From NCBI GenBank assembly GCA_021463165.1, contig JAJTWY010000016.1, positions 1-64,000 on the forward strand: a stretch of 64,000 nt of DNA. The letters run 5' to 3'. Below the pieces are notes generated by a model. That model ran no database searches. It worked only from the letters and a program-made list of their open reading frames with translations, and was not told where the DNA came from. Shown here piece by piece: positions 49,646 through 53,351 of the stretch; the first letter of the stretch is position 1, and every line of letters begins with the position of its first letter. The translations under genes and the position numbers were made by a program. Origin of the DNA: Pyrinomonadaceae bacterium. GTDB taxonomy: Bacteria; Acidobacteriota; Blastocatellia; Pyrinomonadales; Pyrinomonadaceae.

Positions 49646-51211
49646 TTATGCCCAGTAGTTTCGGTCGAGCGAACGATAATTTATCGCCTCGCTGATGTGT
49701 CCGGGTTCGATGTGCTGCTTGCCGTCGAGATCGGCAATGGTCCGCGAAACCTTCAGTATCCGGTCGTGTGCGCGGGCCGAGAGGCCCTGCCGCAGCATCG
49801 CTTTTTCAAGAAGCTGTTCGCTCATCTCATCCAACTCGCAGTAGCGTCGTATCTGCTTCGGCGACATTGCTGAGTTCGAGTAGATACCGTCGCCGCCGAG
49901 TCGTCTGATCTGCAGCTCGCGGGCACGAATAACACGCTCGCGTATGGTCGCTGAGCTGTCACATTCTTCTACATTTTTTCCGCGAAGCTCGTTAAATTTG
50001 ACCGCGGGCACGTCGATATGGATGTCGATCCTGTCCATCAGCGGCCCCGAGATCTTGCCGACGTATCGCTGGATCATCGGCGGCGTGCATTTGCACTCAC
50101 GCGACGAGCCGAAATACCCGCACGGACAAGGGTTCATCGAGGCGACCAAAGTGAAATTCGAAGGGAAGGTCAGCGATGTCGCCGCACGCGAGATGGTAAC
50201 GGTCTTGTCCTCCATCGGCTGGCGGAGGACCTCGAGCACCGAGCGGTCGAATTCCGGCAGCTCGTCGAGAAACAGCACGCCGAGATGAGCCAGGGAAACA
50301 TCGCCCGGCTTCGGGATCGAACCGCCGCCGATAAGCCCGGCCTGCGAAACGGTATGATGCGGCGACTTGAACGGCCGCTCGACGATGAGCCCCGAACGCC
50401 CCGTCAACCCCGCGACCGAATGAATTTTTGTTATCTCGATCGCTTCTTCAAACTCAAGCGGCGGCAGGATCGTCGGCAAACGCTTCGCGAGCATCGTCTT
50501 GCCTGAGCCCGGCGGGCCGATGAACAGTATGTTATGCCCGCCGGCACTTGCCACTTCGAGAGCACGCTTTGCGGACTGCTGTCCGCGAACCTCGTTAAAA
50601 TCGACGCTGTAACGATTTTCGCGGCCACGCAGTTCGGCCATGTCGAGCCGCATCGGCTGCACGCGGGTCGGTTTTCCGGTCATCAACTCATGCGAAAGCT
50701 CAGCCGCAGTTCGCAGATCGGCGACCGGATAGACGTTTATGCCGCTCACGACCGCAGCTTCCGGCGCGTTCTCCTCGGGCAAAAGTACGTGCTTTATCCC
50801 GACCTCGCGTGCCTTCAAAACGATCGACAAAGCCCCGCGCACCGGCCGCACGCGTCCGTCGAGCGAAAGTTCGCCTACGCTCAGGATACCTTCGACGCTC
50901 TCGATCGCCAGATCGCCGTTCGCGCCCAATATCCCCAAGGCCATCGGCAGGTCAAATGCCGCCCCCTCCTTCTTAACGTCAGCCGGAGCCAGATTGATCG
51001 TCGTCTTGTGAAAAGGGAAGAAGTACTTGCTATTAGTGATCGCCGCCCGAACTCGCTCCTTCGATTCACGAATAGCCGTATCCGGCAGCCCGACGATAGT
51101 AAACGGCGGAACAACATCGCCCTCGTTCTTCACCGGCTGCAGATTCACCTCGATATCGACGATCAACGCATCAATACCGTAAACGCACGCCGACTGCGAA
51201 AGGAAGAGCAT
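49646..51211 (-). CDS. comM: YifB/ComM-family Mg-chelatase-like AAA+ ATPase
   Basis: [17 protein letters not shown]...[22 protein letters not shown]...[27 protein letters not shown]...[20 protein letters not shown]...[20 protein letters not shown]. Confidence 0.93.
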
Positions 51212-51285
51212 AGCTAAAGAATTGAACAGCGGAAGTTTAGCTTATTCATGCGGAAAAACCAATAAACCAGCTTTTAGCATTGTCT

Positions 51286-52940
51286 TCTGAATGAATTGCC
51301 ACTAGCTTTAGCTAGTGGCAATAGGCAAGAAAAGAGGCTTCGGGCTTTAGCCCAACAGCTTATAACACCATTGGGCTGAAGCCCAGATCATTTACAGAAT
51401 TCAATCCACTAGCAAAAGCTAGTGGCAATTCAAAACAGTCGGCTAGTCACTAAACAGTGAAAACAGTTCTCAAAACCAACATCTGCCTGAGAAAAAAGGC
51501 CGGAGTGGCGATTGGCCCCTGGCTCTTTTTGCATTGCCACGGGCTTTCTGAAAGAACTGCCATTGGCTATCGCCTAGCCTTCGGAATGAATTGCCACTAG
51601 CTTTAGCTAGTGGAAATAGGCATGAAAAAAGGCTTCCGGCTTTAGCCCAACAGTTTGAGCACATTGGGCTGAAGCCCGGATCATTGAGAGAATGCAATCC
51701 ACTAGCTAAAGCTAGTGGCAATTTATTCCGAAAATACAGCAAAAGCCAGTGGCAATTCTCTAAAAGATCGATCATCATTGGCTCAAACTAGTTAAGAAAA
51801 ATAGGGAGAAGGGATTCTGGGCTTGAGCTCTTACTGGTCGTATGCCACATATCAGTGTTTGGGTACATTTCGTTTGGACAACTAAAGATCGCGAACCGCT
51901 GCTTACGGAATCGATCAGATCCAAGGTATTCGAGCATATTCGCGAAAACGCCAAGGCCAAAAGCATATTTATCGGAGCATTGGATGGCTGGGTCGAGCAC
52001 GTTCATTGCCTTGTGTCGTTAGGTTCGGGACAAAACCTTGACGAAATAATGCGGCTGTTGAAAGGCGAGTCGTCGTACTGGATAAACAAGAATCAGTTGT
52101 GCCGTGGGAAATTTCACTGGCAGGATGAATATTTTGTGGTTTCGGTAAGCGAATCTCTATTGCCGAAGGTGAGAAAATACATCGATTCGCAGGAAGATCA
52201 TCATCGTGTCAGGCCTTTTGATGAAGAGTTCGATGACTTCCTTGAGCGCGGAGGATTCAAGCGAGGGTTGGGCTGAAGCCCGGATCATTTTACAGAATGC
52301 TATCCACTAGCTGAAGCTAGTGGCAATTCAAAACAGTCAGCTAGTCACTAAAACTGTGAAAACAATTCTCAAGACCAACATCTGCCTGAGAAAAAAGGCC
52401 GGAATTTTCACTAGCTTCCCATTCTTAGAGATGGTTACAGAGGAATTTGCCCCTAGCGTTAGCTTTGTTTTCGGAATGAATTGTCATCAGCTTTAGCCTT
52501 GCTTTCAGAATGAATTGCCACTAGCTTTAGCTAGTGGAAATAGGCAAGAAAAGAGGCTTCGGGCTTTAGCCCAACAGTTTGTAATGCCATTGGGCTGAAG
52601 CCCGGAATATTTACAGAATGCAATCCACTAGCTGAAGCTAGTGGCAATTCAAAACAGTCAGCTAGCCACTAAAACAGTGAAAACAGTTCTCAAAACCAAC
52701 ATCTGCCTGAGAAAAAAAGGCCGGAATTTTCACTAGCTTCCCATTCTTAGAGATGGTTACAGATGGATTTGCCCCTAGCGTTAGCTTTGTTTTTAGAATG
52801 AATTGCCACTAGCTTTAGCTAGTGGAAATAGGCAAGAAAAGAGGCTTCGGGCTTTAGCCCAACAGCTTATAACACCATTGGGCTGAAGCCCGGGTCATTT
52901 ACAGAATTCAATCCACTAGCTAAAGCTAGTGGTAATTCTT
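51286..52940. repeat. Field of REP/MITE-like nested palindromic repeats (about 140-bp units) flanking a tnpA gene
   Basis: Consensus AATTGCCACTAGCTTTAGCTAGTGG..AATAGGCAAGAAAAGAGGCTTCGGGCTTTAGCCCAACAG..N..TTGGGCTGAAGCCCGG..CCACTAGCTAAAGCTAGTGGCAATT; full units near 51290-51430, 51586-51724, 52509-52649 and 52797-52938, half unit 52268-52328. Confidence 0.9.
51842..52276 (+). mobile_element. IS200/REP-associated (Y1/RAYT-like) tyrosine transposase TnpA
   Basis: MPHISVWVHFVWTTKDREPLLTESI...LDGWVEHVHCLVSLGSGQNLDEIMRLLKGESSYWINK (HVH = HUH motif) ...LLPKVRKYIDSQEDHHR (catalytic Tyr candidate). Confidence 0.9.
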
Positions 52941-53351
52941 TCAGGTTATCGACAGCCGGAGTTAGTAGCAATTCATTCAAGCTCTCCACAGCCTGAGCAA
53001 GAGACAATTCTCTCAAGCGACTCATACCTAAAGCTAGGCAATTCCTTCAAGAGTTGGCCAACTCACGATCGGAGCGAAAGGAGATCGACAGTTCATCTCA
53101 CCACCTTGGACCTCAGTGACAAACATCTTGACTCTTACGCAACAGATGTGCTATCAGTGAAAGAGTGTTGCATAGCCTTTATATGGCTCGGCTGCGGGAT
53201 CTTTGACAAGAAAAAAGCTGCGATGAGCGGGTCCCAAATTCCGCCCTGTTTTGTGGGGTGATAGGCTTATATTGTCTTACAAAAATTTTTTTGAAAACGG
53301 CGGAAAGTGAGGTGATCGCGGTCGTAAAGTATTGATAACAGCGAGTTTATT

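Follow-up and report, generated by a model that had tools for sequence, protein, structure and literature searches.

Why does the stop codon of a transposase gene lie in a palindrome that recurs, without any gene, in the neighbouring DNA? The initial annotation took this overlap as direct evidence of a link between repeat and enzyme. Within the window (the whole stretch of 64,000 nucleotides that was analysed), tagged palindromes are confined to one cluster, from about 51295 to 52932, which contains the following features:

51293..51431, + strand: short unit 1 (P1-P2-loop-P2'-P1'), without tnpA
51588..51724, + strand: short unit 2, without tnpA, immediately upstream of tnpA
51776..51830, + strand: degenerate left arm, with remnants of the outer (CATTGGCTCAAACTAGT) and inner (GGGCTTGAGCTC) palindromes
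51842..52276, + strand: tnpA open reading frame, Y1 HUH transposase of subclass 1.2 type, 144 aa (HUH residues H53/H55; Tyr113; motif YIDSQEDHH)
52268..52281, + strand: right inner palindrome P2' (TTGGGCTGAAGCCC), holding the tnpA stop codon
52304..52330, + strand: right outer palindrome P1' plus its tag (CCACTAGCTGAAGCTAGTGG-CAATTCA), where the tnpA unit ends on the right
52512..52650, + strand: short unit 3, without tnpA, loop ATGCCATTGGGCTGA
52800..52938, + strand: short unit 4, without tnpA

The gene ends TTG GGC TGA, and its TGA (52274-52276) straddles the middle of the palindrome GGGCTGAAGCCC (52270-52281), which recurs in the four neighbouring non-coding units; the stop codon is thus part of a palindrome arm, as annotated. 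Exact copies of TTGGGCTGAAGCCC occur in the window at 51371, 51664, 52268, 52590 and 52878 only. Three of the four non-coding units share the 16-mer ending in CCCGG without change, and the fourth reads CCCAG. The degenerate left arm that had been noted before the ATG is real: positions 51776-51828 align with the left arm of the unit at 52518 through both the outer and the inner palindrome with a score of 36, which was reached by 0 of 1000 shuffles (for the unit at 51299, one of 1000 shuffles was as good). Given this decayed left arm, the window's tnpA copy may be immobile. The gene does lie between paired palindromes, but the central hairpin in which it had been placed is not the boundary of the putative mobile unit, which is formed by the outer palindromes. 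Taken alone, the window is weak evidence for a link between repeat and enzyme; it is the relatives that settle the matter.

The tnpA product matches Pfam Y1_Tnp with 89.6 bits (cut-off 23); among the NCBIfam models, it scores 66.3 bits against the IS200 model, above the cut-off of 55, and 28.8 bits against REP_Tyr_transpos, below the cut-off of 80. The best PDB matches of the predicted structure (pLDDT 88.9) are the TnpA proteins of ISDra2 and IS608, followed by E. coli TnpA-REP (4er8). The catalytic residues H53, H55 and Y113 are invariant among 15 diverse relatives, as are F126 and E129, C-terminal to the Y motif. The signature Y---Q--HH is present in 100 of 101 TnpA proteins and WQ in 95 of 101. 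Plasmid-borne matches are remote: none reaches 60% identity, and top matches have about 30%. The source genome contains four TnpA genes, only one of which belongs to the clade of the window's tnpA; the other three (L002, L003 and L004, on contigs C45, C12 and C14) are flanked on either side by palindromes of their own, distinct from those described here.

The short units are about 140 nt long and consist of GAATTG-CCACTAGCTTTAGCTAGTGG (P1), about 24-30 nt, GGGCTTTAGCCC (P2), a short loop, GGGCTGAAGCCC (P2'), about 21 nt and CCACTAGCTGAAGCTAGTGG-CAATTC (P1'). They fold into a long double hairpin of about -44 kcal/mol (z about -10.5). The genome has additional units, complete or partial, on six other contigs (C1, C12, C23, C34, C67 and C78). 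The region 51202-53173 of the window is duplicated on C12 (L010, about 46.9-47.6 kb), with one unit, no tnpA and both flanks shared (76-92% identity). The array itself contains a direct repeat of unit and spacer of about 321 bp (52391-52800), so that tandem duplication explains part of the local copy number. The loop of unit 3 (52574-52596, ATGCCATTGGGCTGA) reads ATG CCA TTG GGC TGA (M-P-L-G-stop), as if tnpA had been reduced to its first and last codons, joined in frame; as the sister units read ACACCA, this resemblance may be due to chance.

A search of 119 genomes of the family yielded eight further copies of tnpA with 83-90% identity and roughly twenty-five with about 50-62%. If homologues lacked the arms at both ends, the initial annotation had argued, the overlap would be accidental. 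The arms are there: L045, L046, L048 and L049 have P1-P2 to the left of tnpA and P2'-P1' to the right, and the proposal withstood this test. L051 retains the left palindrome pair and has a broken 3' end, and in L001, L044, L047 and L050 the left arm is damaged, with a complete short unit lying upstream instead of a clean arm. In the loci with at least 83% identity, homology mostly stops 53 to 70 nt past the stop codon, commonly at +53 to +55, which is at P1' or slightly beyond it; on the left, where the arm is intact, it stops at P1, 67 to 75 nt before the ATG. The DNA beyond the outer palindromes is unrelated among close tnpA orthologues. The locus L203 of Acidobacteria bacterium OLB17 corresponds to that of G047, a genome from the same genus as the window's, which is therefore probably a Pyrinomonadaceae acidobacterium.

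How regularly does the stop codon fall within a palindrome? With stems of at least 5 bp, this is the case for 41 of 168 TnpA genes, compared to 63 of 778 other long frames (p = 2e-8). With stems of at least 6 bp, the number drops to 26 of 168, which is not above that of stop-like triplets in the palindrome-rich flanks (15% vs 14%); the stop overlap alone is therefore not strong evidence. It is recurrent in TnpA genes, not obligatory, and it probably arises because the element is compact: the right hairpin begins inside the last codons. Eight close copies, counting the window's, have an intact 3' end, and in all of them the stop codon (TAA or TGA) is located inside P2'. At their right ends, clade loci carry the motif GGCTNNAGCC in 28 of 39 cases within the same family and in 31 of 47 cases in other phyla; the background is 0.009-0.021 per 75 nt, and of 63 less related TnpAs a single one has the motif. 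This inner motif marks the TnpA clade in Acidobacteriota and Bacteroidota; less related TnpAs have other inner palindromes.

The initial annotation regarded the short units as internal-deletion derivatives, and relatives of the element bear this out: both ends of the tnpA element are kept, the reading frame is lost, and some units are trimmed on one side. The more distant elements L052, L056 and L065 contain a third palindrome, P3, adjoining the gene, and short units in G016 and G030 (L147, L146, L201) have the order P1-P2-P3 and P3'-P2'-P1', with a few bases in place of the reading frame. L147, for example, is a 199-nt unit made up of the left and right ends of a tnpA element. Units of G026 have one P3 only (L144, L184, L185, L190; mirrored in L145, L188, L197) or, in L198, none. 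The cores of the units matched the inner flanks of tnpA elements in 14 of 14 cases tested (0 of 300 shuffles). Internal deletion is well supported by these sequence comparisons as the origin of the short units, and its direction, deletion as opposed to capture, is suggested by the one-sided forms and by the gene-adjacent sequence retained in the short units. Like MITEs, the units have both ends in common with the tnpA element and no reading frame. In six units (L061, L053, L070, L186, L187, L196) the outer stems differ between the two ends (e.g. CCTCCAGC on the left and CCACTAGC on the right), which suggests an exchange of ends.

A common hairpin design emerges from about 180 TnpA loci, sampled from the family as well as from Bacteroidota, Verrucomicrobia, Planctomycetota, Marinimicrobia and others: a tag, [AGT]T[AT]G, is followed by an 8-bp palindrome whose 4-nt loop ends in A. 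When sites were chosen by the tag alone ([AGT]T[AT]G-CC), 98 of 298 were perfect 8-bp palindromes with the exact 20-nt span, compared to 5 of 2098 control sites. The tagged palindromes comprise 50 distinct stems, and the loop ends in A in 80 of 80. The tag is GTAG in some lineages, but ATTG, GTTG, ATAG and TTAG are jointly commoner. Covariation in the stem was 0.927, compared to 0.171 after shuffling and at most 0.19 when the register was slid, with 151 cells altered on both sides. These values come from 51 distinct sequences preselected for at least five of eight pairs, which inflates the paired percentage (98% of cells) and leaves the constant tag, the loop base and the contrast with control sites unaffected. 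By a strict hairpin test, 56 of 98 loci have a matched hairpin pair at both ends (0 of 490 shuffles) and 42 do not. Many Bacteroidota loci have a short inverted repeat.

The palindromes and the TnpA clade tend to occur in the same genomes. The CCACTAGC palindrome occurs in 27 of 33 genomes containing the TnpA clade and in 24 of 86 without it (Fisher 1e-7, uncorrected for shared ancestry). Within the genus, units are more numerous in genomes with close orthologues (Mann-Whitney p = 0.002; p = 0.055 for the whole clade; both uncorrected for relatedness). Some genomes have many short units and no detected tnpA; G026, with an assembly that is 71% complete, has about 60 tagged palindromes and yielded no TnpA match. 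In the nearest relative found (87% identity at comM), the orthologous interval has neither tnpA nor units. A flank-based search for empty sites revealed presence and absence at the sufC site and in the comM-rpsU interval, but no base-exact junction; exact empty sites or target duplications were not found by way of the flanks, intergenic DNA being too diverged between species. A single intergenic site 3' of sufC (L013, L163, L156, L158) is occupied by units whose palindrome family varies with the species, which is what a favoured landing place might look like. Within single genomes there are no near-identical recent tnpA copies (the best pair is 82% identical). Given that tnpA DNA identity between species is 73-85%, comparable to that of a housekeeping gene, the movement may be old. 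In IS200/IS605 insertion sequences, a guide tetranucleotide sets the cleavage site; here, base composition showed no clear enrichment of a cleavage dinucleotide at a fixed distance from the tag (predicted to be CA for NTTG and CT for NTAG).

We think it likely that this locus represents a small mobile unit, about 560 bp long (P1, P2, tnpA, P2', P1'), in a decayed state, and that the short units, both beside it and elsewhere in the genome, derive from such units by internal deletion of tnpA. The main rival is a classical REPtron, in which a resident, immobile tnpA amplifies the REP pairs flanking it, and the short units would be REPINs built from REPs. Such a system would account for the genome having a single tnpA of this clade outnumbered by short units, and for the four loci with a complete short unit upstream and no clean left arm. 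It is at odds with the end of homology at or near the outer palindromes and the unrelated flanks of close orthologues, and also with the tnpA-adjacent sequence retained in the short units, including the one-sided third palindrome; we regard it as unlikely. The hairpins are strong (z about -10.5) and mostly intergenic, as would be expected of transcription terminators or RNA elements at gene ends, for which the overlap with tnpA would be mechanistically meaningless. Such elements would not explain why inverted palindrome pairs flank tnpA, why tag and loop base are constant or why the inner palindrome is specific to a TnpA clade, and an Rfam search gave chance-level matches only, none of them near a family threshold. 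This explanation is very unlikely. The degenerate left arm of the window might, finally, suggest that tnpA came to lie beside unrelated repeats and overlaps them by accident, but the same arrangement is repeated, with differing palindromes, in homologues from several phyla. Coincidence is already contradicted by this recurrence, and its probability is negligible.

The mobile-unit reading is most likely to describe an IS-like REPtron, in which TnpA would recognise tagged single-strand hairpins, move its own unit and act in trans on units lacking tnpA. At the level of sequence, the architecture and boundaries of the unit, its recurrence in several phyla, the compensating stems, the constant tag and loop base, the patchy distribution and the unrelated neighbouring DNA are all established. 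The mechanism would be as follows. When the DNA becomes single-stranded, for instance during replication, the ends of the unit would fold into hairpins. By analogy with TnpA-REP (PMC8266576), a TnpA dimer would bind stem, loop and tag, and Tyr113 would cut near the tag. The gene's own unit, as the presumed substrate, or a relative lacking tnpA would then be moved as a single strand.

If so, the orphan subclass 1.2, described in 2018 as IS200-like without IS features or REP, gains a likely DNA partner, although later papers, or papers outside the open-access literature that was searched, may have provided one, as well as a predicted short substrate in several phyla (tag, 8-bp stem and loop ending in A). 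The short units would be a concrete case of REPIN-like repeats arising by internal deletion of a transposase unit, REP origin being an open question, and the tnpA unit would link ordinary IS200-type jumping genes with bacterial REP repeats. More tentatively, and in our view somewhat less likely than not, subclass 1.2 as a whole may consist of widespread, still-moving REPtrons: IS-like elements whose ends bear two or three tagged hairpins and which shed REPIN-like derivatives all the time. It could then be the autonomous source of domesticated REP systems.

By its protein sequence, the enzyme belongs with TnpA_Y1 subclass 1.2 (Quentin et al. 2018, PMC6006769). The signature reported for this subclass, Y---Q--HH, is shared, as are WQ, the conserved C-terminal extension and the low copy number, and the 144 aa of the window's TnpA agree with a subclass length of about 148 aa. 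In that study, the REP entry for subclass 1.2 is 'no', typical IS200 end structures are generally absent and the hosts are mostly Cyanobacteria and Bacteroidetes, whereas here paired tagged palindromes flank many genes and the hosts are Acidobacteriota, Bacteroidota, Verrucomicrobia, Planctomycetota and others. IS200/IS605 elements of subclass 1.1 (IS608, ISDra2) have the same fold, catalytic residues and hairpin ends, but lack terminal inverted repeats; the ends of the tnpA unit are inverted repeats of palindromes, no tnpB was seen and the unit is not multicopy. TIRtrons/TIRYT (Di Nocera 2013, PMC3733652) also have a tyrosine transposase between inverted repeats, some of them doubly palindromic and some in Acidobacteria, but most belong to subclass 2.1 (PMC6006769), with other motifs and a GGGGWSAS repeat.

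The arrangement of the DNA resembles that of the REPtron (TnpA-REP/RAYT with REP/REPIN): a transposase gene between inverted palindromes, and dispersed pairs lacking tnpA. TnpA-REP enzymes act on single-stranded DNA, where tag, stem and loop contribute to recognition to varying extents and the cut is made next to them (PMC8266576). The 8-bp perfect stem resembles the Stenotrophomonas REP, itself an 8-bp perfect palindrome, and the loop is similar to the TTTA loop of the Marinomonas REP, three positions of which are needed (PMC8266576). The protein differs, being IS200-like (Y---Q, not YxxNP) and outside the RAYT family. The tag is GTAG-like and agrees in part: RAYT palindromes have GT[AG]G at their 5' foot, and here the tag is [AGT]T[AT]G, with GTAG in some lineages and the other forms together more often. 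There are two or three palindromes per end, and the gene has apparently moved together with its ends. Judged by its sequence, the system is REPtron-like in its probable working, an IS200-like subclass 1.2 member in its enzyme and IS-like in its apparent movement as a unit.
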